A stretch of 64,000 nucleotides of DNA from Paenibacillus solani (lineage in GTDB: Bacteria > Bacillota > Bacilli > Paenibacillales > Paenibacillaceae). Shown piece by piece: positions 3,819 to 58,813 of the stretch. The stretch covers positions 145,058 through 209,057 of the forward strand of contig NZ_LIUT01000006.1 in assembly GCF_001277345.1 (NCBI RefSeq). The letters are read 5' to 3'. Both the position numbers and the translations under genes were made by a program. The notes under the pieces are model-generated. The model did no database searches. It worked only from the letters and a program-made list of their open reading frames with translations, and was not told the DNA's origin. Every line of letters starts with the position of its first letter. Positions within the stretch are counted from its first letter, which is position 1.

Positions 3819-3935
3819 GAGGCATGTACTTATAGATGTTAATCTAGCAGCAAAATATGCATGCGATCTTCTGTAATATATTGATGGCTATTTCAGATCA
3901 CTGTAGATGTGAGATGAGAAAATCCTCAACAATCC

Positions 3936-3975: not shown

Positions 3976-4155
3976 ATAGCCAGCAGTATATCTCTTAACT
4001 GGCAGGGCAGCACACTTTAAAACCCATCTTTTTAAATTTAATCTTTTTAAACCTCATGCAATCAAAGCCTCGCATCTATTACCCACTCTCAACCATCTCA
4101 TTCATCGAATTTTCCTTCAAACAAGTCTCGGTTCTAATATGCTATGATTCTAATA

Positions 4156-4212
4156 ATCATTAATGTAAACGCATTCTTATTCATGGTATAATTCACCTGA
4201 TCATTAATGATC
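4156..4212 (+). promoter_or_regulatory. Promoter framed by repeated ATCATTAATG elements
   Basis: TGTAAA (4164-4169), 17 bases, TATAAT (4187-4192) form a plausible sigma-A promoter for the small gene at 4264. The decamer ATCATTAATG occurs at 4156-4165 and again at 4200-4209. The second copy is the core of a perfect 14-base palindrome (4199-4212) at the expected transcription start. Two copies 44 bases apart, flanking the promoter, suggest a repressor operator pair; the regulator is unknown. Confidence 0.45.
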
Positions 4213-4263
4213 GTATGAAACTATAATCTGGCTATTGTAAACCGGCTTGGAGGTGTTACAAGA

Positions 4264-4452
4264 ATGAGAAGGTATAATATTTGGCGTCCGATTCTATTGG
4301 TAGCGGTGGCCCTGCTTACGAATAATTTGGTTACGACCCTGGCTACCTTGTTTGGCATGTCACCTGATGCGGCAAGCAGCTTGGGGTATATCGCGATGGT
4401 TATTGCCGCACTGATTGCGTTTAATCGCATGAGGAAACCTAACCGCAAGTGA
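4264..4452 (+). CDS. Small two-helix membrane protein, unknown function
   Basis: The 62-residue ORF starts at an ATG 8 bases after a strong GGAGGTG (4249-4255). It has two hydrophobic segments (about residues 8-30 and 38-55) and a basic tail ending RMRKPNRK, so a small inner-membrane hairpin protein is likely. I do not recognise the family. It has its own apparent promoter with a repeated operator and stands alone between the pspA operon and the BMP transporter. The strong RBS and the membrane pattern argue that it is real. Confidence 0.68.
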   Translation: MRRYNIWRPILLVAVALLTNNLVTTLATLFGMSPDAASSLGYIAMVIAALIAFNRMRKPNRK

Positions 4453-4541
4453 ATAATCATTCATCGTGCGGATGATAACGCATGCATAACGTGTTGCGGG
4501 GATAGTATTTTTTATGATGTGAAGAGGATACGAGGTCTTCC

Positions 4542-9976: not shown

Positions 9977-10465
9977 ATGCAGATCGATTCGCTCCGGCCG
10001 GGCGGAGATATTACGGAAACCTATGAATTATATGGCGATATGCTTTTTAAAATAGCGATGGTGTACCTTGGGAATAAACAGGATGTCGAAGAAGCCATTC
10101 AGGAGACGTTCATGAAGCTGATATATAAAGCGCCTGAATTCAGCGATCAGGAGCATAAGAAGGCTTGGCTTATTCGGGTGATTACGAACCACTGCAAGAA
10201 CATGCAAGGGAGCCTGTGGCGCAAGCGGGTAACCAAGATGGAGCATATGAACGATTATTTTGTCGAGCCTTCTGAACAGACGCTGATGGAACACGTCATG
10301 CGTTTGCCGTTCAAGTATAAATCCGTCATCCATTTATTTTATTACGAGGATTATTCCGTTAAGGAAATCGCCGGGATTTTGCAGATTAACGAGTCTGCGG
10401 TCAAGATGCGTCTTCAGCGCGGCAGGAAGCTGCTGCGTATGGACTTGGAAGGAGAGGACGATTGA
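9977..10465 (+). CDS. ECF-type RNA polymerase sigma factor
   Basis: The 162-residue protein has sigma region 2 (about residues 15-85; KQDVEEAIQETFMKL and KAWLIRVITNHCKN) and region 4 (about 105-155; YSVKEIAGILQINESAVKMRLQRGRKLL). It redirects RNA polymerase to a small stress regulon. The start follows AAAGGAGGTCACAACCG. It overlaps the next gene at TGATG, which encodes a single-span membrane protein, the usual layout for a sigma factor and its anti-sigma. I cannot assign it to a named Bacillus ECF factor with confidence. Confidence 0.9.
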   Translation: MQIDSLRPGGDITETYELYGDMLFKIAMVYLGNKQDVEEAIQETFMKLIYKAPEFSDQEHKKAWLIRVITNHCKNMQGSLWRKRVTKMEHMNDYFVEPSEQTLMEHVMRLPFKYKSVIHLFYYEDYSVKEIAGILQINESAVKMRLQRGRKLLRMDLEGEDD

Positions 10466-17094: not shown

Positions 17095-20000
17095 AGGTTA
17101 CATTCAGCTACAATGCCGAGAATCATGGCGTAACAGCTCATTACAACGTACCAACAGATCCCGGAGCCCAAGTCCCCGCTAACCACCTGCGGGTTCACTA
17201 TAACCGGACTGATGCGAATTACAGCAACATGGGGCTTTGGATCTTTGATGACGTTGCTGTTCCGTCTGCAAACTGGCCAACAGGCGCCACGCCATTTCCA
17301 AGTGGACAGCAGGACAGCTATGGCGCTTTTGTTGATATCCCGTTAAAGGATGCGGCCCAAAAAGTCGGCATTGTCGTCGTGGACCGCATTAGCGGTAACA
17401 AAGACGGCGGCGACAAGAAATTTGCACTATCTTCACCAGACATGAAGGAAGTATGGCTCAAGGAAGGGTCTGATACGGTATACAGCTTCGAGCCTGTTGA
17501 CCTCCCGGCAGATACTGTGCGCATCCATTATCAGAGACAGGATCAAAATTATAATTCCTACGGCTTATGGTTATGGGGCGACGATGTCGCGGTGCCTTCG
17601 AAGAATTGGCCGTTAGACGCGACGATGTTCCCGCCAGGTCAAACTGATCGGTACGGGGCCTATGTCGATATCGCAATGAAGCCGAACGCGCAGAAGATCA
17701 ACTTCCTTGTATTGGATCCGTCTAAGGGAGATGCCGGCAAAGACGGCGGTGACAAGGGCTTCACCCTGGTGGACCGATATCAGCATCTGTTTGTCAAAGA
17801 AGGAGACAATACCGTTTATACATCTCCATACGGTGAAGTATCTACGGGGTTAGTTTCGGCAGAAGTGCTGGCTCCGGGTAAAATCCAACTTGGATTTACG
17901 ATGACCGATGGATTGGCAGCGGATACGCTGAAAAATGAGCTTCAGATCAAGGACAAGGCCAGTAATCCGGTAGCGATTCAAAACGTGAAGATCACCGGAA
18001 ACACTACGATCGAAGTATCTGCCTCATTCCAGCTGGATCAGATTCCGCTGAGCGTAACCTACGCGGGAAAAACCGTATCGGCTTCAACTGGCTGGAGAAT
18101 GTTGGATGAGATGTATGCTTACGATGGCGATGACCTTGGGGCGACATACCAAGCTGGAGGAGCGGAGCTTAAACTGTGGGCGCCGACAGCGACCGGTGTT
18201 ACCGTGAACCTGTACAGCAAGGATAATGCAGAGAATTTAATCGGCAATGTCCCCCTGCAAAAAGGCGATAAAGGGGTTTGGTCGGTTCAATTGAAGCCTG
18301 GAGACCTCGGAATTCAGGACTTTAGAGGATATTTTTATCAATATGAAGTGACCAACGATGGCGTGACGAAGACTGTGCTTGATCCGTATGCCAAATCGAT
18401 GGCGCAGTTCAGAGTGAACACCAAGGGTGAAGCAGGACCTGATGGTGATACCGTCGGCAAAGCAGCTATCGTTGACTTGAGTCAAACGAATCCTGCCGGC
18501 TTTGATTTTGCTAACATCCCAGGTTATGAGCAGCGGGAAGACGCTATCATCTGGGAGATTCACGTCCGAGATTTCACCTCGGATCCAACGATCGAAAGCG
18601 ACCTGCATAACGCAACTTGGGGATCGTATGATGCTTTCAAAGAAAAGCTTGAATACATTAAATCCCTGGGCGTCACCCATGTCCAGCTGCTGCCTGTGAT
18701 GGCTTGGTATTACGGGGACGAAGCGGCCATGAAGAATCGGGAGCTGGAATATTCGGCAAAAGATAATGAGTACAACTGGGGGTATGATCCGCACAGCTAT
18801 TTCTCGCCTGACGGTGCTTACTCCGAGGATCCAACGGATCCGGAGCTTCGAATTAAAGAATTGAAGGCGATGATTGATGCCATTCATGAGGCAGGCATGG
18901 GCGTCGTTCTGGACGTGGTGTACACTCATATGGCTAAGGCAGAATTTTTGAATGATATCGTGCCTAATTATTATGCCTTCCAGGACGCCAACGGCAATTT
19001 CATCGGAGGCTTCGGCAACAATCTGGCAACCAACCACAAGATGGCCGAGAAGCTGATGGTGGATTCGGTAAAATATTGGTTCGACGAATACAAAATCGAC
19101 GGCATGCGCTGGGACATGATGGGCGATGCCACGTATGAAGCCGTGCAGAACGCTTATGATGCAGCGGCGGCTATCAACCCGAAAGCCCTGTTTATCGGCG
19201 AAGGATGGGTCACATTCGGCGGCCATCTGTCAGATCCTTCTCTTGCAGGCAAGGGAGCGGACCAGAACTGGATGGATAAGACGGACGACGTCGGCGTCTT
19301 CTCGGATGAGTTCCGCAACGAGCTGAAATCCGGCTTTGGCAACGAAGGCGAGCCTCGATTCATTACGGGCGGCGCACGTGATATCCAGACGATTTTTAAT
19401 AATATCAAGGCACAGCCAAGCAATACGAAGGAAGATGATCCGGGTGACATGGTTCAATACATTGAAGCCCATGACAATCTGCCGCTGTACGATATCATTG
19501 CGCAGTCCATCAAGAAGGATCCTTCGATTGCAGCGAATGACCTGGAGATTCATAAGCGCATTCGCCTGGGCAACCTGCTCACATTGACCTCGCAAGGAAC
19601 CTCGTTCCTTCATGCAGGACAGGAGTACGGACGAACCAAGCAATGGCTCGGTCAAGGGGTACCTGAGCAGAAGTACCATGAGTTAGAGGATGAGAACGGA
19701 CAGAGCTTCGGTTATTTCATTCATGATTCCTATGACTCTTCCGATGCCATCAACATGTTTGATTGGGAAAAGGCAACGAACGAGGTCAAGTACCCGGAGA
19801 ATAACAAGACCCGGGAATATACAACCGGATTAATTGAGCTTAGAAAATCATCTGATGCTTTCCGCCTTGGCGATAAGTCCATGGTAAATTCCAACGTGAC
19901 ACTGCTTCAGATTCCTGAAGTGAAGTCGAAGGATCTGGTCATTGCGTTTAAAAATAAAGCTACCGATGGAACTGGCAACTATTATGTGTTCGTGAATGCG

Positions 20001-23000
20001 GATAGCCAGTCGAGAACGCTTACGCTTAACGAGGATCTGACTTCCGGCATAGTCTTGGTCGATAACGATGAAGCAGGCGTGGCTGGCGTTAAGACGAAGT
20101 CAGGGTTTACGTTAACGTCCGGCTCGATCACGCTGGAGCCTCTGACGGCTGTTGTCATTAAGACGGATGCTGCAGCATCTGTACTGCAAGCGATATCTGT
20201 GGATAAGGACAGCTATTCCTTACAGGCCGGTAAAACACATCAGACCACGCTGTACGCTCAATATGAAGACGGAAGCAAACGGAGCGTAACGCGGCAAGCA
20301 GCCTATACTTCCAGCAACCCGCAGGTTGCTGCAGTAACGACAGCAGGTTTGGTAAAGGGGATCTCTGAAGGAACCGCAGTCATTACTGCTTCTTATGGAG
20401 GGTACCAGAAAGAGATTATCGTCACGGTTACAGCGGACGCCGTCGACAACAAACGGTATGTGCAGATTAACTATATTCGTCGGGATCAGGATTACGAAGG
20501 CTGGAAAATGTGGGTTTGGAATACGGGGGCACAGAACGGCTGGATAAAATTTGATACGATCGAAAACGGTAAGGCTACCGCTATGATTGAAGTCTCTACG
20601 GAATCAACTGGTGTCGGTTTTGTACTTGCTAAAGGAGAGGACTGGAGCAATAACAAGCAGGATATCCCGGATGACCGCATGATTCCGCTTCAGCTTGGCG
20701 AAGCTTTCACGAAGGTCAACGTGACCAGCATGGTTCATAAGATGGACATCTTGCCGAGTATTACGGGGCCGACACTTGCGGACGGTAATATTACGTTCTT
20801 TTATCGAGACGATCAATTGTTTAGGGACGGACGGATGGATACCATCTCGGACGTGAAAGTGAAAATTAATGGGAAGCTGGAGACGATGGTTTATGTTCCT
20901 GACAAGGAATGGTTCAGTTATACGCTGAAGGGTGTTTCTCCGGGAACGTACGAATACACATTTATCGTCAATCATAACGGAACGACGAAGGAAGTCACTG
21001 ATCCGAAAAATACGGTGAACGGGAAATCACAGGTGATCTATCGTGAACCAACCGTAACTGTGGAGGCGGAAGTGAATCCCGGCTCGATCTCTTACAACGA
21101 GAATGCGGTTCTGAAATTAAAGGCAGCCTCGTCAGAGCCCGTCGACTATAACGAAGCCTATATCGACCTGACAGAGCTGGGCGGTCCGGCTAAAGTGAAG
21201 GTCGATACCGAGCTGCTGGAGCAGAGCATTGCTGTTAAAGATACGGTCGCAGCGGGCAGCAAGCGTATTCCGGTTACGCTCGTCGACCAATACGGCAATA
21301 AGCATACAGGCGAAGCTGCAGTGACGGTGAAGTCAAGAACTGCAGGCGGCAAACTCGATTTCGATTGGGACGAGGCGCGCATTTATTTTGTGCTGACCGA
21401 CCGTTTCATGGATGGGGATACTTCCAATAATGAGAATGTCGACAAGGATCACCCGGAAGCCTATCACGGCGGTGATTTCAGAGGGCTGATCGATAAGCTC
21501 GATTACATCGAAGATCTGGGCGTGAACACGCTGTGGATTACGCCGATTGTCGATAATATCGATTTTAATCAGGGTGCAGGATTTGGGGGCAAACAGTATG
21601 GGTACCATGGCTATTGGGCCAAAGACTTTACGAAGATTGACGAGCATTTAGGCGACTTGGACACGTTTAAAGAGCTTATCGACAAGGCCCATGACAGAGG
21701 CATCAAAATTATGGTGGACGTGGTCGTCAACCATACGGGTTATGGCCTGAAACCGGGGGACAACGCGCCTGGCATTACACAGCAGGATAAGGATCGCTTT
21801 AAAGACATGCTCCGTACGGACGACGGTCTTTCGGCAAATACGGATCCGATCAAGGGTGAGCTTGATGGCCTTCCTGATTTCATCACCGAGGATCCGGCTG
21901 TGCGCGAGCAGATCATCGATTGGCAGGCAGGCTGGCTGGAGCGAGCCAAAACCGACCGCGGAGACACGATTGACTACTTCCGGGTAGATACAGTGAAGCA
22001 TGTCGATGAAACGACGTGGAAGGCGTTCAAGAATGCGCTGACCCAGCTTGACCCGAGCTTCAAGATGATCGGAGAATACTTCGGAGCTACAGTGGACAGC
22101 GATGGTGGAACGCTCCAAAGCGGACAGATGGACAGCTTGCTGGACTTTGGCTTCAAGGGAAAAGCCCAAGAGTTCGTGAACGGCAGCGTGGAATCGGTCG
22201 AGGCCTACCTGGCTGACCGTGAAGCCAAGCTGGATAACACCCGCATGATGGGACAATTCTTGAGCAGCCATGATGAGGATGGCTTCCTGTCTCACTTCGT
22301 GGACGGCGACAAGGCGAAATTGATGGCGGCTGCGGCGCTGCAGATTACATCCAAAGGCCAGCCGGTCATCTATTATGGCGAAGAACTCGGGCGCTCGGGC
22401 AAGAATGCCGGGGATATGAGCAAGGGTGAATTCAGTGAGAACCGTGGCGATATGCCATGGGATCAGATGGAAGCGGAGAAGCAGTTGCTCACGCATTACC
22501 AGAAGCTCTTGAACATTCGAGCGGCATATTCAAAAGTATATTCGAAGGGAACACGCACCTCCCTAGTGGCTTCAAATACCGATGGTTATATCGCATTTGA
22601 TAAGGAGTATAAGGGAGAGCATATCGTGACCGCGATTCATGTGAAGAATGAATTGAAAGAAGTGAAATTGCCGGTGCCTTTCAAGGCGGGCAGTAAGGTG
22701 AAGGATCTTTACAGCGGCAGCATTTATAACGTAAATGCTGGTCAGACCGTAACCGTAGCCCTTCCGTCAATGTCAGATGGCGGAACCGTCATTCTGGCAG
22801 CTGTTCCAGGGAGCGGAGGGGACAACGGCACCAATCCTGATGCTGGAGGTGGTGTTGTAAACGAACCGGGTAGTGGAAACGGCAGCGGGGCAGCAGGTGG
22901 GAATTCGCCTGCCGATCCGGCAGTAAAATCGAATCCGGGTCAGCGTTTTGTCAACGAAGAGTCATTGCGCAGCGGACAAGAGAAAGTGACGATTCAGCTT

Positions 23001-24038
23001 GATGCTGCGGATATCGAAGTTCTCTTGCCACTGACGGCAGCGGACATCCTGGGAGCGAAGCCGCTGGAGCTGAAGCGGGATGGCATGAGCATTCAGCTTC
23101 CATCCGCACTGCTTAAAGCGCTGCGCCAGCTCGTACCGGATGATCAGGTTAAGGATGCGGTGATTTCGTTCAAACTGGAATTGGTTGCTTCGCAGACGGC
23201 TGCCTCCCTTGTAACCAAAGCAGCTGCCTTCGAGAAGGCAAAATTGAAGCAAGGCAGCAAGATGTATGATTATGACCTGTCCGTCCGGACGAAAGACGGC
23301 AAGGCATATAAGCTGGAACATTTTGCAGCACCTGTATTGCTCGGTTTTGCAGTCGATAGCAATATTAACGATAAGCTGGCCGGCATCTATTATATCTCGG
23401 ATCAAGGCCAACTGAATTATGCGGGCAGCAGGTTGGTAAATGGTCTGTTGACAGCAGAAGTGAGCCATTTCAGCAAATATGCCGTGCTGGAATACGACAA
23501 ATCGTTTGCCGATTTGACGGGCCATTGGGCAGAGCAGGCGGTCAAAGAGCTTGCCGCCAAACAGGTAGTGAATGGCATGAGCGATACGCTGTTCAGCCCG
23601 AGCCAGCAGCTGACACGGGCCCAGTTTGCGGCGATGCTCGTTCGGGCTCTGGGCCTTGAAGGTACGCAAGGTACGACCTTCACGGATGTGGACAGCAATG
23701 CATGGTATGCATCCGCCGTTGCGGCAGCTTATCAGCATGGACTGGTAAACGGCAGAGGAAAGGACACTTTCGCTCCGAATGCGGCAATCACCCGCGAGGA
23801 GCTGGCTGTGATGCTTTATCGTGCATACCAGAGCACGGGGGAAGCTTCTTCTTCAGCGAAGGCACCAGACCTGAAGGATCAGCAGTTAATTTCTTCATGG
23901 GCTGTCCAAGAGGTGAAGGAAGCCTTGTCCCTTGGTTTGATGAAAGGGCATGCCAATGGCAAGCTGGAGCCTCAGGGCAAGACAACTCGTGCAGAAAGCG
24001 CGCAAGCCGTGCTTAATCTGTTGGAACAGCTGCCATAA
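17079..24038 (+). CDS. Cell-surface amylopullulanase (two GH13 domains, SLH anchor), frameshifted N-terminus
   Basis: The reading frame is open from 17079; the first ATG (17229) has no RBS or signal peptide, so this is the body of the gene starting at 16423. In order: two CBM41 starch-binding modules, an Ig-like spacer, CBM48, and a type I pullulanase GH13 domain with YNWGYDP, DVVYTH, the nucleophile Asp in DGMRWDMMGD, GEGW and EAHDNL. Next come a Big_2 domain, another CBM41-like module, a CBM34/48-like segment, and a second GH13 amylase domain (DVVVNH, FRVDTVKH, GEYFG, SHDEDG). A Gly/Ser/Pro linker, an unassigned domain and three SLH repeats end the protein. It would cut alpha-1,6 and alpha-1,4 bonds in starch and pullulan at the cell surface. 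Both active sites look intact. Confidence 0.9.
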   Translation, partial: LPQDVKVTFSYNAENHGVTAHYNVPTDPGAQVPANHLRVHYNRTDANYSNMGLWIFDDVAVPSANWPTGATPFPSGQQDSYGAFVDIPLKDAAQKVGIVVVDRISGNKDGGDKKFALSSPDMKEVWLKEGSDTVYSFEPVDLPADTVRIHYQRQDQNYNSYGLWLWGDDVAVPSKNWPLDATMFPPGQTDRYGAYVDIAMKPNAQKINFLVLDPSKGDAGKDGGDKGFTLVDRYQHLFVKEGDNTVYTSPYGEVSTGLVSAEVLAPGKIQLGFTMTDGLAADTLKNELQIKDKASNPVAIQNVKITGNTTIEVSASFQLDQIPLSVTYAGKTVSASTGWRMLDEMYAYDGDDLGATYQAGGAELKLWAPTATGVTVNLYSKDNAENLIGNVPLQKGDKGVWSVQLKPGDLGIQDFRGYFYQYEVTNDGVTKTVLDPYAKSMAQFRVNTKGEAGPDGDTVGKAAIVDLSQTNPAGFDFANIPGYEQREDAIIWEIHVRDFTSDPTIESDLHNATWGSYDAFKEKLEYIKSLGVTHVQLLPVMAWYYGDEAAMKNRELEYSAKDNEYNWGYDPHSYFSPDGAYSEDPTDPELRIKELKAMIDAIHEAGMGVVLDVVYTHMAKAEFLNDIVPNYYAFQDANGNFIGGFGNNLATNHKMAEKLMVDSVKYWFDEYKIDGMRWDMMGDATYEAVQNAYDAAAAINPKALFIGEGWVTFGGHLSDPSLAGKGADQNWMDKTDDVGVFSDEFRNELKSGFGNEGEPRFITGGARDIQTIFNNIKAQPSNTKEDDPGDMVQYIEAHDNLPLYDIIAQSIKKDPSIAANDLEIHKRIRLGNLLTLTSQGTSFLHAGQEYGRTKQWLGQGVPEQKYHELEDENGQSFGYFIHDSYDSSDAINMFDWEKATNEVKYPENNKTREYTTGLIELRKSSDAFRLGDKSMVNSNVTLLQIPEVKSKDLVIAFKNKATDGTGNYYVFVNADSQSRTLTLNEDLTSGIVLVDNDEAGVAGVKTKSGFTLTSGSITLEPLTAVVIKTDAAASVLQAISVDKDSYSLQAGKTHQTTLYAQYEDGSKRSVTRQAAYTSSNPQVAAVTTAGLVKGISEGTAVITASYGGYQKEIIVTVTADAVDNKRYVQINYIRRDQDYEGWKMWVWNTGAQNGWIKFDTIENGKATAMIEVSTESTGVGFVLAKGEDWSNNKQDIPDDRMIPLQLGEAFTKVNVTSMVHKMDILPSITGPTLADGNITFFYRDDQLFRDGRMDTISDVKVKINGKLETMVYVPDKEWFSYTLKGVSPGTYEYTFIVNHNGTTKEVTDPKNTVNGKSQVIYREPTVTVEAEVNPGSISYNENAVLKLKAASSEPVDYNEAYIDLTELGGPAKVKVDTELLEQSIAVKDTVAAGSKRIPVTLVDQYGNKHTGEAAVTVKSRTAGGKLDFDWDEARIYFVLTDRFMDGDTSNNENVDKDHPEAYHGGDFRGLIDKLDYIEDLGVNTLWITPIVDNIDFNQGAGFGGKQYGYHGYWAKDFTKIDEHLGDLDTFKELIDKAHDRGIKIMVDVVVNHTGYGLKPGDNAPGITQQDKDRFKDMLRTDDGLSANTDPIKGELDGLPDFITEDPAVREQIIDWQAGWLERAKTDRGDTIDYFRVDTVKHVDETTWKAFKNALTQLDPSFKMIGEYFGATVDSDGGTLQSGQMDSLLDFGFKGKAQEFVNGSVESVEAYLADREAKLDNTRMMGQFLSSHDEDGFLSHFVDGDKAKLMAAAALQITSKGQPVIYYGEELGRSGKNAGDMSKGEFSENRGDMPWDQMEAEKQLLTHYQKLLNIRAAYSKVYSKGTRTSLVASNTDGYIAFDKEYKGEHIVTAIHVKNELKEVKLPVPFKAGSKVKDLYSGSIYNVNAGQTVTVALPSMSDGGTVILAAVPGSGGDNGTNPDAGGGVVNEPGSGNGSGAAGGNSPADPAVKSNPGQRFVNEESLRSGQEKVTIQLDAADIEVLLPLTAADILGAKPLELKRDGMSIQLPSALLKALRQLVPDDQVKDAVISFKLELVASQTAASLVTKAAAFEKAKLKQGSKMYDYDLSVRTKDGKAYKLEHFAAPVLLGFAVDSNINDKLAGIYYISDQGQLNYAGSRLVNGLLTAEVSHFSKYAVLEYDKSFADLTGHWAEQAVKELAAKQVVNGMSDTLFSPSQQLTRAQFAAMLVRALGLEGTQGTTFTDVDSNAWYASAVAAAYQHGLVNGRGKDTFAPNAAITREELAVMLYRAYQSTGEASSSAKAPDLKDQQLISSWAVQEVKEALSLGLMKGHANGKLEPQGKTTRAESAQAVLNLLEQLP

Positions 24039-24180
24039 GCCAGGCCCCGTCTCAATTCGCGTATGGCAAATCCAGATATATGGTCAATGAAGTTTTCATA
24101 CAAATTGGATCGTAATTTGATCATCATATTAATATGACTTCTATGTTTTTTAAGGAAAAGTGAGATTTAATCAATATGTA

Positions 24181-24222
24181 TAAGGCAGCCGATCACAATC
24201 ACCGGCTGCCTTATTGTTTTTT
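24181..24222 (+). terminator. Terminator of the amylopullulanase gene
   Basis: TAAGGCAGCCG (24181-24191) pairs perfectly with CGGCTGCCTTA (24203-24213), followed by TTGTTTTTT. It is about 140 bases after the stop; nothing else is visible between. Confidence 0.85.
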
Positions 24223-24304
24223 ATTGAGTTATCGTTTTCCATTCAAGACCCACCGTCCACCTTTGCTTATCATCATCAAATAACCACTTAGCAAAATTCA
24301 TAAC

Positions 24305-24526
24305 CTACAAGTATTTCTCGGACTGAATATATTCCAACAACTCCGTAATAATGTGTGATAAAGCATCCTCTCTTGGTATACGGATCATCTTACTGATATT
24401 CTCGATATCCCCCTGGAATAACTCAATAATTCGTAGCATTGCCCCCGAGTCTTTTTGTCTAGCTGCTTGTAATAGCATCAAAAATTCGTGATCTGTGATA
24501 ATTGTTGAAGCATTTTTTTCTTCCAT
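24305..24526 (-). CDS. Small sigma-region-2-like protein (RsoA/HTH_16 type)
   Basis: The 73-residue protein reads like a stand-alone sigma region 2 N-terminus or HTH_16 domain: FLMLLQAARQKDSGAMLRII, a helix, then EDALSHIITELLEYI. In B. subtilis, RsoA supplies region 2 to SigO, which supplies region 4. The ATG at 24526 has AGGCGGTG 5 bases upstream. The gene overlaps the end of the region-4-like gene by 49 bases in another frame, so the two are translated from one message. I infer that the pair forms a two-subunit sigma factor. Other options are a phage- or transposon-type regulator. Confidence 0.6.
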   Translation of the reverse strand: MEEKNASTIITDHEFLMLLQAARQKDSGAMLRIIELFQGDIENISKMIRIPREDALSHIITELLEYIQSEKYL

Positions 24527-24816
24527 TTATTCACCGCCTGCTGACTTATATGTAACTGTGCCGCTACCTCGGCTTCTGTTAATTCTTCGATGTAAAGTTT
24601 ATAAATAATAATTCTCCCTTTTTCGGGCAGTTTTAAAAGAAGCTCCTGTACCAAAATTCGGTTGTCGATTCTACTGGGAGCATGCAGTTGTGCAGAGATA
24701 TTATCGAATAATAAAAATTCATGTTGACGTATTCTTCTGTTTCGATATTGCAATCGCCATCCTATACGATAAACCTCTTTGCGATAACGCTCAATCATTA
24801 ATGATTGGCTGTCCAT
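24478..24816 (-). CDS. Sigma-region-4-like DNA-binding protein
   Basis: The 112-residue protein has a C-terminal helix-turn-helix like sigma-70 region 4 (about residues 66-105: LPEKGRIIIYKLYIEELTEAEVAAQLHISQQAVNKWKK). Its N-terminus is basic and helical, with no region 2. The start at 24816 lies after GGGAGGGAG. It precedes and overlaps the region-2-like gene, the same order as sigO-rsoA in B. subtilis. The local sequence is AT-rich relative to the amylopullulanase gene. A nested inverted repeat with a GAAC-N4-GTTC core lies about 65 bases upstream and may control it. Confidence 0.68.
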   Translation of the reverse strand: MDSQSLMIERYRKEVYRIGWRLQYRNRRIRQHEFLLFDNISAQLHAPSRIDNRILVQELLLKLPEKGRIIIYKLYIEELTEAEVAAQLHISQQAVNKWKKKMLQQLSQITNF

Positions 24817-24867
24817 AAATCTCCCTCCCTCTTAAGCGTCTACTATATAGGAGTTTTCAAGACATAA

Positions 24868-24924
24868 TTCACAACCTAAACAGGAACATTTGTTCCTATT
24901 TATTTTACCATATTTAGTTGTGAA
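24868..24924 (-). promoter_or_regulatory. Nested inverted repeat with LexA-like core
   Basis: Inner palindrome AGGAACATTTGTTCCT (24882-24897) has 7-base arms and contains GAAC-N4-GTTC, the core of the Gram-positive LexA/DinR box. Outer arms TTCACAAC (24868-24875) and GTTGTGAA (24917-24924) are also perfect. It is the only striking signal upstream of the split sigma genes. Binding by LexA is a guess; the outermost bases of the box do not fit. Confidence 0.5.
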
Positions 24925-25021
24925 ACTATAGCCGTCTCTTTCTTTTAAGGATGGAAAGTAAATAGAGTATCATTTTCTTTAGTTAAGGAAACTATAAATC
25001 CTTAGATTAGCGGAAAACACC

Positions 25022-25065
25022 AAAAAATCAGCTCGACTCCGTATCAATGGAGTCGAGCTGATTTT
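25022..25065 (-). terminator. Terminator of the DUF4127 gene
   Basis: A perfect 17-base stem (25024-25040 with 25049-25065) and an 8-base loop, with an A-run at 25022-25027 that is a T-run on the minus strand. It lies 12 bases past the DUF4127 stop and separates that gene from the sigma-like genes. Confidence 0.85.
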
Positions 25066-25076
25066 GTTTTGCTTTT

Positions 25077-26780
25077 TTATTGAAGAGTTACGATTGGACT
25101 TAAAGTAACTTCAAATGCACGTCCCCAAATAAAATTGGGGTTACTATATGACAATGTTGCAGCGGCATAACTTGAGAAAAACCAGCTGGAACCGCTAATT
25201 TGCCGTATATTATACGATGCTCCTGAACGATCAATCAAAAATGCATCTTTTGCTGCAAGTGTAGCTGTATGTGTTTGCATTCGATCTCGAAGTAACACGA
25301 GCATGTGTGAATAGTCAGTTGTTGTATTAAAAAGCACCATATTTTGATCAGCGATTGATGAAACGTTTGTATACATGGAATGCTCCCGAGAGTAGGTTCG
25401 AATCTCACCGATGGCGATTTTTTTATAATAGTAATCTTTCAGAAATCTTTTGAAAAGCAGTGAACCGTGTGCATTTACAGCTGCATTCAAAGCAGATGGT
25501 ACGGTTTCGGTTACCAGAAATGCATATCGTGCTTGGCCCATTCCGAGAGCAATGCCAATTTTATTTCCTGGTGTGTTCCAGGCACTGTAGCCCAGAATGC
25601 TCCCAGAATGCTGACAGTCGAGAAGTGCCTCGGTAACTGTGCTGTCTGCTGGGCCCGAGCCTACAAAATCAATAACTATGGTAAGCACTCGATTTGTACT
25701 ATTAGCGACAATCCTGCTAACCGCATTAGAAACTTCGCTTGCTGCCGTGATAGCTAAGATTTCTAACGTTGGAGAATCGGTTACGTTCTGACCACCAATA
25801 ATATCGACGTGGCTTTGAATGTTTTGGTGTACGTTCATATATTCGTATGGACTCGTAATAGTGGAGCCATGAGGCCCATAATATTGCACAGAATAGCTTG
25901 GTTTAGCCCCACCGCGATATAGTTGATTCGCCATTCTAGCCATCAAAGAATGACCAAGTCCATCCGCATCGGGAAGAATAACGGCCCGATCAGGATTTTG
26001 ACCACCACTACCACCAAGTGACTGATTAATAAAATTTTCAATGAATCGTATTTCATTAATCTGTACGCCTTGAGTATTAGCATCATCGACTCCAACAGCC
26101 AAAAAATCAATGTAACCTTGTTTCGCAAGCTGATCCAAAATATAATAATTCGATTTAAATTTGTGTTGACGAGCATTATAGTATTGATCTTTATTGAATT
26201 GATCGGTATTGCCATACTCAGACGATGTTGGTGATAAATTGTATCCTGTTAGTATGTCATTAAAATCAGTCCTTACCAATCGCGGTTGCTGCATGAAGGA
26301 GCGTGATTCGGTATACGCATCAAAAGTTAAACCTCCTGCAAATGTCGTTGTAGCCAAGCGCATGACTGTATCCATCACGAAAATGGGTTTACTCGGGTAA
26401 GACTGTTTAACTGTCCGGATAACATCAAGCAAGTTAGTAGTTACTGGATCAAAGTCTGGATAAGTTCCCCCGCCACTTGTGCGGAGTCGCCTGCTGCCGA
26501 TCAAACCGCCATATGCAAGCATATCAGTCGAGATAATAAAACCATCAGCTGATGCAGCATGATTGAGGATGAATTGACGAATATTCGCGGTATTTCCGTA
26601 TGACGGTGATGATGTGCCTAGCAATGTTGTGCCTGACGTACTCTTTTGCGAATCTAACCGATTTCTAATATCACTACGGGGTGGAGTAATGACATGTATT
26701 CCTGCACTTTTACCTAGCGTTATGACATCATCCAGATTTACTGGTCGATCATCAAGTGGGACATACAATACTTTTTTCAT
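25077..26780 (-). CDS. DUF4127 family protein
   Basis: The 567-residue protein begins MKKVLYVPLDDRPVN, the signature of DUF4127. Family members are uncharacterised; the N-terminal half looks like an alpha/beta domain (VDDANTQGVQ and LPDADGLGHSLMARM segments). There is no signal peptide. The ATG at 26780 follows AAGGGGAG. Base composition is clearly lower in GC than the flanks (for example 23 of 60 bases at 25081-25140 and 15 of 60 at 26101-26160, against 35 of 60 at 22081-22140), which suggests horizontal gain. It is monocistronic by its terminator, but may belong to the island that carries the split sigma pair. Confidence 0.78.
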   Translation of the reverse strand: MKKVLYVPLDDRPVNLDDVITLGKSAGIHVITPPRSDIRNRLDSQKSTSGTTLLGTSSPSYGNTANIRQFILNHAASADGFIISTDMLAYGGLIGSRRLRTSGGGTYPDFDPVTTNLLDVIRTVKQSYPSKPIFVMDTVMRLATTTFAGGLTFDAYTESRSFMQQPRLVRTDFNDILTGYNLSPTSSEYGNTDQFNKDQYYNARQHKFKSNYYILDQLAKQGYIDFLAVGVDDANTQGVQINEIRFIENFINQSLGGSGGQNPDRAVILPDADGLGHSLMARMANQLYRGGAKPSYSVQYYGPHGSTITSPYEYMNVHQNIQSHVDIIGGQNVTDSPTLEILAITAASEVSNAVSRIVANSTNRVLTIVIDFVGSGPADSTVTEALLDCQHSGSILGYSAWNTPGNKIGIALGMGQARYAFLVTETVPSALNAAVNAHGSLLFKRFLKDYYYKKIAIGEIRTYSREHSMYTNVSSIADQNMVLFNTTTDYSHMLVLLRDRMQTHTATLAAKDAFLIDRSGASYNIRQISGSSWFFSSYAAATLSYSNPNFIWGRAFEVTLSPIVTLQ

Positions 26781-26873
26781 ATTATAGAATCTCCCCTTTA
26801 CTTTGATAGGCTAATGCCTTCACTAATAAAGGCGATTTAAGACCACAAATTACAACCAACAATGAATAAAATA

Positions 26874-26912
26874 TTGACATCCATCTAACAATTCCAGTAT
26901 TTTCCGTTTACA
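26874..26912 (+). promoter_or_regulatory. Candidate PhoP-box hexamers and promoter of the pst operon
   Basis: TTGACA (26874-26879), CTAACA (26885-26890) and TTTACA (26907-26912) fall on an 11-base phase, with one position skipped, like the TTNACA direct repeats bound by PhoP-P in B. subtilis. TTGACA could also be a -35 element. They lie 175-213 bases before the first gene of a phosphate operon. Confidence 0.42.
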
Positions 26913-27086
26913 ATCTGCTCCTATAATTACAATCAAGCAAGGTTACTATACTTTGATGGACAATCGGACGTTTGGGGGGATGAGCAAGATACGCTCTCAT
27001 CAATAGAAAGAATAGTAGAGTTTTTAGCAGCAGGTGAACGCAGACGTATACCAATAGAATGATATAAAGAAGGGTGACAAGAGCCA

Positions 27087-28484
27087 ATGTCGATGAAAAA
27101 GACGTTCGTAGTTTCCATGGTTGCCGCAGTGCTGAGTACTTCTGTCGTTAGCGCAGGATCGGCTGCGCCAGCTGTAAAGCCTGCTGCCACTGCACAGGTG
27201 CAAAACTCCACATTTACCATCAATGGCAGCACCGTTGTGATTCGTTCCCTGGTGAAACAAGGGGAGACGCTTGTATCACTCCGCGATGTGGTTAGCGCCA
27301 CCGGTGCGCAAGCAGAAGTACATAACGGTACTACAACCGTGAAGCTGAATGGACATACCCTCGTCCTGAAGTCCAATTCGAAAGAAATTACCGTGGATGG
27401 CGTGAAGTCCACGTTGAAGCAGCCCGTCACAAACGTGGTTGGCACAAGTTATATCGCCTTAAGGCCTTTGGTAACGGGGCTTGGCGGAACGCTTGCCAGC
27501 CGGGCAGGAGTTCTGGAGATCAGCACAGTACCGTTGCTGGAAGGCGCGGAGAATCCTCGTTTTGCCGGTGAAGGCAAGCTGATCCTCTCCAAGAGCGATG
27601 AGCAAGGCAGAGCGGATTATTTGGTTGATACGGCTAGCGGTAAGTTCGAGCTCCTGCTTACGACAAGCGGCGGGTCCGATCTGGTCGTATCGCCAAGCGG
27701 CGACCAAGCAGCCTATACGGACGCAGAAGGTGCAGTGTACGTACTGGACCTGAAGAACAGAGCATCCCGCCTGATTACAAGCGATGCCAGTATTAAACCG
27801 GAGCTTGTGTGGTCAGCCGACAGCAGCGCCATCTTTTTCCTGCAAGGGGATAAGGGTACGGTAATTGCCAAGCTGAGTCTTACCGACGGTTCCATCACGA
27901 AAATCGTGGAGGACAAGGTGGATTACAAGGAGAATCTGAGTGTTTCCAATGACGGGAAGAAGTTCGTTTACACCGTAACCACGCTGGGCACCGTAACCTC
28001 GGACACAACCAATATCGACGAAGACAACGTAAGCATTGATTACTCTTCCAACCAGACGCAAATCTATTCATATAACAGCGAAGAATCGAAACCTGCGGCT
28101 GTGCAGTTGACTGCATCTTCAGATGACAAAGTTTTTGTGCTCTCAAATGATGGGCAGAAGGCCTTCTATGTCAGCATTCCGTCAACAGATGATAAAGCAG
28201 TACTGCTGTCGGTGGATTCTTCCCAAAAAGCCGCCAAGGTGTTTGCCGATTACGATGTAGAGCAAGCGCTGCTATCTGGCGGGGTTCTGTATGTGCTGGC
28301 AGCTCAGGATGACAGCAGCAGTGTGATCTACTCCATTAGCACAATGACAGGCAAACAAACCAAGCTGTACACGGTACCAGCCGACGTAACTTCCATTACG
28401 GTTGCCGGTTCGCAAATCGCGATTGTGCACGATGGTGTGGTCAAAGTGAATGCAGGCGACAGCTGGAGAGCTGTTACGAAGTAA
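27087..28484 (+). CDS. Secreted stalk-domain protein with propeller-like region
   Basis: The 465-residue protein starts at 27087 (or 27093, MKKTF) after GAAGGGTGA and has a Sec signal peptide cleaved near AGSAAPA. Residues about 45-150 are a copper-amine-oxidase N-terminal-like stalk domain (TLVSLRDVVSATGAQAEV, YIALRPLVTGLGG). The rest looks like TolB-type beta-propeller repeats (SPSGDQAAYTD, LVWSADSSAIFF, VSNDGKKFVYT, LSNDGQKAFYV). It is 53 bases before pstS with no terminator between, so it is apparently co-transcribed with the phosphate transporter. A role in extracellular phosphate capture or wall interaction is inference; the function is unknown. Confidence 0.78.
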   Translation: MSMKKTFVVSMVAAVLSTSVVSAGSAAPAVKPAATAQVQNSTFTINGSTVVIRSLVKQGETLVSLRDVVSATGAQAEVHNGTTTVKLNGHTLVLKSNSKEITVDGVKSTLKQPVTNVVGTSYIALRPLVTGLGGTLASRAGVLEISTVPLLEGAENPRFAGEGKLILSKSDEQGRADYLVDTASGKFELLLTTSGGSDLVVSPSGDQAAYTDAEGAVYVLDLKNRASRLITSDASIKPELVWSADSSAIFFLQGDKGTVIAKLSLTDGSITKIVEDKVDYKENLSVSNDGKKFVYTVTTLGTVTSDTTNIDEDNVSIDYSSNQTQIYSYNSEESKPAAVQLTASSDDKVFVLSNDGQKAFYVSIPSTDDKAVLLSVDSSQKAAKVFADYDVEQALLSGGVLYVLAAQDDSSSVIYSISTMTGKQTKLYTVPADVTSITVAGSQIAIVHDGVVKVNAGDSWRAVTK

Positions 28485-50742: not shown

Positions 50743-51282
50743 TTGGCACCGGAGACAGAGCAAGAATTAGAGGTTAAGCTCGCCAAGAAAGGAAACCATG
50801 AAGCATTCATCAATTTGATCAGGCCATTGGAATTGCAAATGTACAACATAGCGAAGGCCATCCTAAGACATGATGAGGATTGCGCAGATGCCTTGCAGGA
50901 AGCCATATTACAAGCATATAAATCACTTCCGAGCTTAAGAGAGGCATCGTTCTTCAAAACATGGCTGTTTCGCATCCTGATTAATGAATGCAACAGGATC
51001 CTCCGCAAAAAGAGCAACGTGGTCCCGTTACATAATCAGGAGGAAGCCAGGCACGTTACACCGAGCATCGATGTCCATATCGATTTACGGGAAGCGGTGT
51101 ATAGATTGGAGGAAGTGTCCCGTACCATTGTGATTTTGCATTATTTTCGAGACTTGCCATTGCGGCAGATTGCGGAAATGCTTGATTTGAACGAAGGTGC
51201 CGTAAAGACGCGTCTTCACCGGGCCAGGGTCACGCTGTCGGAATGGCTGGCCAATCACAGGGAAAGGAAGGTTAACCTATGA
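50743..51282 (+). CDS. ECF-type sigma factor
   Basis: I prefer TTG 50743, 7 bases after AAGGGAGG; a GTG at 50725 precedes the RBS. The 179 residues have region 2 (about 10-80: ALRHDEDCADALQEAILQAYKSL-like, KTWLFRILINECNRIL) and region 4 (about 115-165: LPLRQIAEMLDLNEGAVKTRLHRARVTL). The stop overlaps the next gene (ATGA). It directs polymerase to a small regulon with the co-encoded membrane partner as its likely inhibitor. Confidence 0.9.
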   Translation: MAPETEQELEVKLAKKGNHEAFINLIRPLELQMYNIAKAILRHDEDCADALQEAILQAYKSLPSLREASFFKTWLFRILINECNRILRKKSNVVPLHNQEEARHVTPSIDVHIDLREAVYRLEEVSRTIVILHYFRDLPLRQIAEMLDLNEGAVKTRLHRARVTLSEWLANHRERKVNL

Positions 51283-55113: not shown

Positions 55114-56013
55114 ATGCGATTGGATCAAATGTATAGCAAATATAAGCCGATGATGTTCGGGCTGGCCTACCGGATGCTGGGAATTGCAGCGGATGCGGAG
55201 GACATTGTGCAGGATGTATTTTCTCAATACTTGCAGAAGGATCGGGGAGAAGTTTTGAACGAGAAAGCATATTTGGTCAAAATGACAACGAACCGCTGCA
55301 TCAACCTGTTGAAATCGTCCAGACGTCAGCGCGAAACATACACCGGTCCCTGGCTCCCGGAGCCATTGCCGGATGTTGAAATGTTGTCGCGGTCCGATCC
55401 TGCGGAACGCCGCGAAACGATTGGTTATGCCTATCTGGTGCTGCTTCAACGGCTAACGCCGCTGGAGCGCGCTATTTATATCGCCAAGGATACGCTTGGT
55501 CTTGAATATCAGGCCATAGCAGAGATGCTTGGTAAGACAGAGATCAGCTGCCGCAAGACTTTCAGCCGTGCTAAGCAGAAAATGGGCCATCATTCGGAGA
55601 GGCCAGTGGGGGAAGGGACCCGGACGGAACAGCAGGAACGCTTTGTTGAAGCTTTCCTGCGGGCGTCCGATATGGGTAATTTCAAGCCGCTGCTGTCTTT
55701 CTTGAAGGAAGAGGTTACGCTGCTATCGGATGGCGGCGGCAAAGTGAGAGCGGCCATCAACCCGATCCTGGGCGTAGAGCGGGTACGTGCTTTCTTTGAA
55801 GGATTGTCTGCTAAAGGCTCGTTTCGAGAAGGCTTTGAACCTGTATCCGTAAACGGAGAGCCCGGTTTATTACTGAAGCGGGACGGCAGGGTTTCGAAAG
55901 TGCTGACGGTGGAGTGGGAACCTGACTTATCCCGTATCCGACATATTTATCTTGTAGTGAATCCGGATAAATTGCAGATGTTTAATCGAAACAGCCAGGG
56001 AACATCCCTGTAG
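55114..56013 (+). CDS. ECF41-family sigma factor with C-terminal SnoaL-like domain
   Basis: The start is ATG 55114, 6 bases after AAGGTG. The upstream in-frame ATG (55054) lies on the promoter -10 element, so it cannot be used. The 299 residues hold region 2 (about 5-70), linker motif WLPEP (about 79), region 4 (about 115-160) and a SnoaL-like C-terminal domain with DGGGK (about 206) and NPDKL (about 283). These three motifs define ECF41, whose C-terminal domain replaces a separate anti-sigma. Its partner is the convergent AhpD-like gene. It probably controls itself and that gene. Confidence 0.93.
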   Translation: MRLDQMYSKYKPMMFGLAYRMLGIAADAEDIVQDVFSQYLQKDRGEVLNEKAYLVKMTTNRCINLLKSSRRQRETYTGPWLPEPLPDVEMLSRSDPAERRETIGYAYLVLLQRLTPLERAIYIAKDTLGLEYQAIAEMLGKTEISCRKTFSRAKQKMGHHSERPVGEGTRTEQQERFVEAFLRASDMGNFKPLLSFLKEEVTLLSDGGGKVRAAINPILGVERVRAFFEGLSAKGSFREGFEPVSVNGEPGLLLKRDGRVSKVLTVEWEPDLSRIRHIYLVVNPDKLQMFNRNSQGTSL

Positions 56014-58293: not shown

Positions 58294-58813
58294 ATTGGTT
58301 CTCTCCCTTCAGCCAGAAGCTGTGATTATGTTCAAGTTTCTTGCGCATGATTTTCAATGCTTTGTGGAGCCTTGATTTAACCGTCCCTACAGGGATCTTC
58401 AGTGTTTCGGCGATTTCCGCCATCGACATCTCACCGATATAGCGGAGCGTGACAACGGCCATCAGCTTATCCGGAAGCTGCCGCAGTAATTTCCCCCATT
58501 CCGCCGCCGCTGCCTTTTCCAATACGATGGTGTCTACGGATTTAACCGATGCGGTGGTCTGCTCGTGGAGCCACTCGACCTGGCTTTGCTTGTCCCGCTG
58601 GGTCTGATTCCTTCTAAGCAGGTTCAAGCAATGGTTCATTGCGATGCGCATAATCCAGGCGCGTGTATGCTCAACGTTTCTCCAATCTTGACGAAATACG
58701 GTGACAAAAACGTCGTGGCAGAGATCTTCCGCATCTTGCGCGTTCCGCAGCATGTAGTAGCAGGTGCGGTACACATCCTTGTTGTAAGCATCGAATAACT
58801 CGCGTTCCGTCAA
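58280..58813 (-). CDS. ECF-type sigma factor
   Basis: TTG 58813 lies about 9 bases after AAGGAG and begins LTERELFDAYNKDVYRTCYYML; an ATG at 58927 would add 38 residues of no known sigma character. The 177 residues carry region 2 (QDAEDLCHDVFVTVF; TRAWIMRIAMNHCLNLL) and region 4 (MSMAEIAETLKIPVGTVKSRLHKALKIM). It is coupled to the DUF4179 gene. The promoter was not fixed; GGTTCA on the plus strand near 58869 reads TGAACC in the gene direction but has no good -10. Confidence 0.9.
   Translation of the reverse strand: MTERELFDAYNKDVYRTCYYMLRNAQDAEDLCHDVFVTVFRQDWRNVEHTRAWIMRIAMNHCLNLLRRNQTQRDKQSQVEWLHEQTTASVKSVDTIVLEKAAAAEWGKLLRQLPDKLMAVVTLRYIGEMSMAEIAETLKIPVGTVKSRLHKALKIMRKKLEHNHSFWLKGENQYGSF

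Follow-up and report, generated by a model that had tools for sequence, protein, structure and literature searches.

Two overlapping sigma-like genes

A 64,000-nucleotide stretch of the Paenibacillus solani genome (the window, from contig NZ_LIUT01000006.1) carries on its minus strand a pair of small genes that very probably encode the two subunits of one sigma factor. We call them A and B. Gene A, an open reading frame (ORF) at 24478-24816, encodes a sigma region 4 protein of 112 amino acids (aa), and gene B (ORF at 24305-24526) encodes its 73-aa partner, which resembles sigma region 2.1-2.2 and is homologous to RsoA. The genes overlap by 49 bases (24478-24526) in different frames. ORFs of 112 and 73 residues with this overlap had been proposed from the sequence alone (the original prediction), and their coordinates are confirmed; the AT-rich island in which they were placed corresponds to the kilobase 24001-25000, whose GC content of 36.4% is the lowest in the window, as compared to 39.4 to 54.7% in the other kilobases. 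Upstream of A, and beyond what had been predicted, are an SOS-type box, a second promoter-like element, and a neighbouring gene of the DUF4127 family.

Gene A is single in this genome, the next matches being longer sigma-type proteins. The protein matches the Pfam domain Sigma70_r4_2 above the cutoff (E 3.5e-9, 36.6 bits), and its fold as predicted by AlphaFold matches sigma region 4 in PDB structures, in agreement with the predicted region 4-type helix-turn-helix (HTH). Both the Pfam and the structure matches place the start of region 4 near residue 40-55. The protein is composed of a long N-terminal helix (residues 3-32) and sigma region 4 (about 40-112).

For B, an isolated region 2 (or the HTH_16 domain) had been suggested. 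The former has stood up to both fold and profile comparisons: with the predicted fold as the query, the top nine matches of Foldseek and the top 20 of VIA are all sigma factors, with modest scores. For the latter, PF12645 (HTH_16) is the sole Pfam match of B and scores 17.3 bits, below the gathering score of 22. Among the 80 B members of the family described below, 75 match HTH_16 at E 1 or better, the best value being 1.1e-8. PF12645, although named after the helix-turn-helix, also matches RsoA-like sigma-2 halves, such as the RsoA-model protein of locus L143 (21.9 bits), and hence database names hide this class.

When aligned with a profile of extracytoplasmic function (ECF) sigma factors, the two proteins tile it side by side, B covering columns 29-94 and A covering columns 96-206. 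Profiles of ECF and SigO-like proteins were compared after a length and match filter that retained 19 of 30 sigma loci. The SigO-like profile contains nothing that matches the first 41 residues of A (0.1%), and the N-terminal helix alone, compared with the ECF profile, yields 17% in a different region, which is not significant. As neither profile provides a significant match, we only infer that this helix corresponds to region 2.3/2.4. Taken together, B and A cover regions 2.1 to 4 of single-chain ECF sigma factors, but do so as two proteins, with the region 4 gene first, that is, in the reverse order. Sigma regions 4 and 2 thus reside on separate polypeptides, not in one chain. A and B are very probably two halves of one sigma factor, and the identity of the halves is well supported by the profiles and the predicted folds.

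Several other assignments have been considered and rejected. PHROG terminase matches of A are weak and confined to the HTH, as are matches to other HTH proteins; the homologues are not terminases, whereas homologues that are all phage terminases or unrelated HTH regulators had been named as an outcome that would overturn the original prediction. A colicin-immunity identity of B had matches at E 0.2 and worse and was unsupported by the structure searches. As for a phage origin, no phage record matched A in tblastn searches at E 1e-5.

Conservation of the pair and its relation to SigO-RsoA

Relatives were collected by scanning a genome collection with an alignment of A, and the best 80 of 136 confirmed loci were retained (numbered with the prefix L; alignments A3 and A4 contain 80 and 77 sequences picked from larger sets). 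A search model built from B's own homologues located a B gene immediately after A in 77 of these 80 loci, and in 76 of the 77 it overlaps A. In a second set, comprised of 30 loci returned from genomes of the family, every A is followed by a B, the two genes sharing 49 or 52 bases. Gene A is present in 114 of 295 family genomes (E 1e-15 or better), which represent 11 of 19 genera, and a single genome may have as many as four matches. The homologues come mainly from Paenibacillus and its family, the close ones are near-identical (97% for B and 95% for A), and six plasmid records carry a relative.

In three loci (L077, L084, and L088), A has no adjacent B. Such solitary genes, together with the weak similarity of A to ArpU (NCBIfam, E 3.3e-4) and to phage regulators and the modest fold scores of B, would fit a model in which A alone is a region 4-type regulator of the ArpU or positive-control-factor kind that binds the GGTTGT sequence discussed below, while B is a co-regulator or an anti-sigma factor and not a core-binding half of sigma. 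We consider this model improbable. B is homologous both to RsoA-like proteins and to ECF region 2.1-2.2, and in structure searches it matches sigma region 2; moreover, the upstream element contains a conserved -10-like box at a fixed spacing, and not only a -35-like site. The genomes of L077 and L084 also hold complete pairs (L052 and L049, respectively), located 12 to 24 kb off on the same contigs. The A genes of L077 (P. oralis) and L084 (P. macerans), at 4001-4345, are second copies with no B behind them and with the nested start, described next, kept. In L078 (around 4001-4511), A ends early and B could be recognized only as an ORF with a later start, so that the locus looks like a broken pair.

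The start of B lies inside the recognition-helix motif of A. In the window, this motif reads SQQAVNKW, and the ATG of B is made up of the A that ends the Lys codon AAA and the TG that opens the Trp codon TGG. In the relatives, the motif is (S/T)QQ(A/G)V(N/S)KW, and the start of B straddles two of its codons, taking one base from the end of a codon for Lys, Gln, or Arg and two from the beginning of a codon for Trp or Cys. We examined 82 A genes, namely those of the 80 loci, the window's own gene, and a second copy in L024; the gene of L088 has no motif and is left outside the counts. The start codon is kept in all 81 motif-bearing genes, as ATG in 79 and GTG in two. The ribosome-binding site of B, AGGCGGTGA (24531-24539, minus strand), is situated within the A coding sequence four bases before the start, and the codon usage of the relatives is biased accordingly. 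The Val codon of the motif is GTG in 78 of 81 cases, compared to 139 of the 468 Val codons that lie outside the motif in these genes; the respective figures are 52 of 52 and 94 of 447 for the Ala codon GCG, and 76 of 78 and 478 of 809 for the Lys codon AAA, although neither these counts nor those of the start codons are independent, as the genes are related. The A/B overlap is under constraint. The ribosome-binding site of A, recognized by its sequence, is GGGAGGGAG at 24821-24829 on the minus strand.

SigO-RsoA of B. subtilis (YvrI-YvrHa, accompanied by RsiO/YvrL and YvrJ) is the only natural two-subunit bacterial sigma factor found in our search of open-licence literature. The same search found no report of the Paenibacillus family, which is not proof of absence. 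As stated in a passage of PMC8103513, SigO and RsoA carry sigma-4 and sigma-2, respectively, and initiate the transcription of oxdC-yvrL and yvrJ as well as that of the operon encoding the two; acid stress is listed for the pair in a part of PMC10141391, and a SigO-RsoA AND gate has been published (PMC10028694).

To compare the two systems, we used the NCBIfam equivalog model of RsoA, NF041489, with a cutoff of 100 bits. Run over 398 Bacilli genomes, it matched 50, four of them above the cutoff (L143-L146), and B. subtilis was the sole match among 14 control genomes. Of the 80 B members, it matched one (E 0.022). In the reverse direction, the B model matched the RsoA-like ORF in 28 of 30 RsoA-model loci (E from 4e-11 to 0.62, with 19 values below 0.001), and the A model matched region 4 of the SigO-like ORF in 29; with L154 having no A match, and L145 and L154 no B match, 28 SigO-like pairs were listed. 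Profile-profile alignment with hhalign yielded 96.3% (E 1.9e-9, 61 columns) for B against the RsoA-like proteins and 98.0% (E 1.7e-13) for region 4 of A against the SigO-like proteins, whereas reversed controls yielded 4.9 and 1.2%, respectively. The view of the pair as a miniature relative of SigO-RsoA, smaller than SigO, therefore holds.

In B. subtilis, as in A/B, the sigma-4 gene is directly upstream of the sigma-2 gene, and the SigO/RsoA-like pairs of other Bacilli (L147-L172, found with NF041489) share this order and the homology, but have a longer A subunit. The SigO-like ORFs are 120-299 aa as called (28 ORFs; 192 aa in L143), and A with its 112 aa is shorter than each of them. Region 4 starts near residue 125 in SigO, while A has no SigO-like N-terminal part; RsoA-like proteins extend to a GFWEF-like tail, while B ends before it. 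The start inside the recognition-helix motif is a further difference. Overlap as such is not unique to A/B, since overlaps of 1 to 53 bases occur in 10 of the 28 SigO-like pairs (4 bases in L143), the other 18 having gaps; as each ORF was taken from its first start, the lengths and overlaps given for the SigO-like genes may be inaccurate in some cases. Judging from sequence, A/B appear to differ from SigO-RsoA in being smaller, in being cut elsewhere, in the nested start, and in a LexA-type control. SigN of B. subtilis pBS32, described in a part of PMC10601692 as one sigma factor tied to DNA damage, may be likened to A/B in its DNA-damage link, by description only.

Upstream elements and candidate targets

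The SOS/LexA-type box upstream of A, GAACAAATGTTC (24884-24895), is a GAAC-N4-GTTC palindrome. It adjoins an extended -10-like sequence, TGGTAAAATA (24901-24910, minus strand), presumably of a housekeeping promoter, and many relatives have a TATAAT-like sequence at the same place. Of the 80 relatives, 47 have the palindrome no more than about 250 bases upstream of A, compared to 0-2 for eleven half-site-permuted palindromes. The same 12-mer, as well as similar boxes, is found next to lexA of this genome, in the intergenic region. Hence, a LexA-type operator is located at the promoter of the pair, which would place it under LexA control. The assignment was made from the sequence, and at the other genome sites with the palindrome, the pair itself excepted, no evident SOS genes were seen in the loci read, although the lexA region did show one. 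One could therefore think of the operator of some other palindrome-binding repressor, in which case the pair would not be an SOS gene; with an identical box beside lexA, this seems very unlikely.

Among 29 SigO-like genes in the RsoA-model loci, 13 are preceded by the same palindrome (L147, L148, L152, L155, L156, L158, L160, L163, L164, L165, L170, L171, and L172), compared to 0 or 1 for permuted controls; none is present at the four loci above the RsoA cutoff, in which they differ from A/B. LexA control may be common among two-subunit sigma factors. In L158 and L165, the box is followed by GTTGT ... CTCTTTATA or a similar element, while L166 has no exact SOS box, but has GGTTGT ... CCTTTATTAG.

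Downstream of the box, at 24843-24876 on the minus strand, is the candidate self-promoter, GGTTGT-N19-CCTATATAG, which occurs once in the window against 0.05 expected. Its loose form, GTTGT/CCCTA (of the GTTGT-N19-(C)CCTA type), is present in 62 of 81 upstream regions, and many relatives without an exact SOS box retain the element. In the 57 strict sites, the spacer is 19 bases in 52 and 18 bases in five. We thinned 49 sites, which had been selected by the boxes themselves, to 31 dissimilar sequences and observed conserved flanks (T runs before both boxes and TA after the second one) and a spacer whose middle is not conserved. A stricter pattern, GGTTGT-N-CC(Y)WWT-N-TGAR, occurs 38 times in the 80 loci, with no match of the backward control; 31 of these sites are away from the pair promoter, and 27 of the 31 have an ORF with a ribosome-site-like sequence behind them, a few of the ORFs being doubtful. 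A motif scan of the relatives gave 80 matches, of which 58 are at the promoters of the pairs themselves and two both represent the window's own site; among the remaining 20, two in L025 look like chance. In the whole genome, GGTTGTN26-31TGAAGGC has three matches (control, 0), and the CCTTTA part is found only in the one before the DUF4127 gene. A promoter matrix derived from the relatives (57 training sites, 51 of them distinct) gave its highest score in the window to the site of the pair itself. At 24917 on the plus strand, a degenerate second GTTGT element with a matrix score of 6.5 points away from the pair and is perhaps a relic of a divergent promoter.

The DUF4127 gene (25077-26780, minus strand; 567 aa, PF13552 with E 6.4e-70) is in tandem with the pair, upstream of it, and is a candidate target. 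Its candidate promoter, GGTTGT-N19-CCTTTATTAGTGAAGGC, is at 26816-26857 on the minus strand. Fourteen of the 80 relatives have a DUF4127 gene beside the pair, divergent in 12 and in the same direction in two, and the strict element is upstream of it in 13 of the 14, L051 having a variant. Also behind the element are genes for small YvrJ-like proteins, for a protein with an Amidase_3 match (E 9.7e-13), and for unknown proteins about 146-210 residues long. A shared element thus stands before the pair and before neighbouring genes, and the pair may be autoregulated.

The YvrJ-like proteins (59-74 aa) are encoded behind the element, divergently from the pair, in L024, L029, L039, L065, L068, and L069 (minus strand near 3860-3890); the one tested falls below the Pfam YvrJ cutoff (E 0.015). 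A family of about 146-155 aa with a start of the MA-SREYA- type is behind the element in L014, L024, L029, L065, and L082, twice in tandem in L029, and the stretch tested had no Pfam match.

Proposed regulation and neighbouring features

A and B are likely to form a miniature two-subunit sigma factor, a variant of the SigO-RsoA kind that is primed by the SOS response and amplifies itself. B, as region 2.1-2.2, would bind the beta' coiled coil of RNA polymerase, the N-terminal helix of A, contacting B, would probably complete region 2 (2.3/2.4), and region 4 of A would serve to recognize the -35 element and to bind the beta flap. LexA would bind the SOS box and repress the housekeeping promoter there, so that cleavage of LexA upon DNA damage would lead to a first burst of A, with translation of B beginning at the ribosome site and start codon contained in the 3' part of gene A. 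The holoenzyme with A and B would then fire the GGTTGT/CCTATA promoter of its own operon, yielding a positive feedback, and also the related promoter before the DUF4127 gene. The own operon belongs to the SigO-RsoA regulon as well, according to the passage of PMC8103513 cited above. We strongly infer this circuit from the sequence comparisons.

Several observations weigh against this reading. The B protein of the window has no NCBIfam match and scores below the equivalog cutoff of NF041489. In the window alone, the SOS palindrome is not rare, with two matches against 0.81 expected, and it is the relatives that carry the weight of the evidence. The genome-wide pattern GTTGTN18-20YCCTA is not specific (31 forward matches against 80 in the backward control), and one unrelated genome site (L128) scored above the pair's own site with the promoter matrix. 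The DUF4127 promoter in the window is a diverged copy of the element, missed by the matrix at threshold 6. This miss, and the position of the element downstream of the SOS promoter, where it would sit in the leader of that transcript, are what one would expect if the pair were a true two-subunit sigma factor driven by the SOS promoter alone, and GGTTGT/CCCTA were an operator or a leader element. Still, the same bipartite element precedes DUF4127 and other genes, it also precedes pairs without an exact SOS box, and the middle of its spacer is not conserved; hence, we regard an operator or leader role as unlikely and favour a promoter used by the A/B sigma factor. Here, the regulon may comprise no more than the pair and DUF4127; alternatively, the link to DUF4127 may be weak.

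More tentatively, two-subunit sigma factors could broadly be a DNA-damage switch in Bacilli, with SigO of B. subtilis being the exception. Under this conjecture, for which we hold somewhat more doubt than confidence, release of LexA would prime a self-amplifying split sigma factor that fires a small local regulon (DUF4127 here, YvrJ-like proteins and a cell-wall amidase in relatives), perhaps for lysis or release, and the Paenibacillaceae pair would be a compressed form, with the start of one half inside the DNA-reading helix of the other. In this compact family, for which there are candidate promoters and a candidate inducer, the mechanism can be put to the test, in particular, where a sigma factor can be cut, how the halves meet, and why the split is kept, while the SOS link offers a physiological role. 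For DUF4127, on which our literature search found no paper, it would be the first regulatory handle.

The surroundings of the pair contain two hairpins and, at Rfam gathering thresholds, no known elements in the region 23900-27100. The hairpin 3' of B (24179-24214) has its T-run on the plus strand and so is probably the terminator of the convergent gene at 17229-24038 (plus strand). A perfect-looking hairpin between the DUF4127 gene and the pair (25023-25066), with A/T runs on both sides, is a likely terminator by its sequence. The general sigma model TIGR02937 matches 51 places in the genome above its cutoff, and the A/B pair is below this cutoff in the genome scan. Four more sigma-type ORFs of the window are above it, at about 10016-10438, 50803-51243, and 55120-55584 on the plus strand and at about 58334-58804 on the minus strand.
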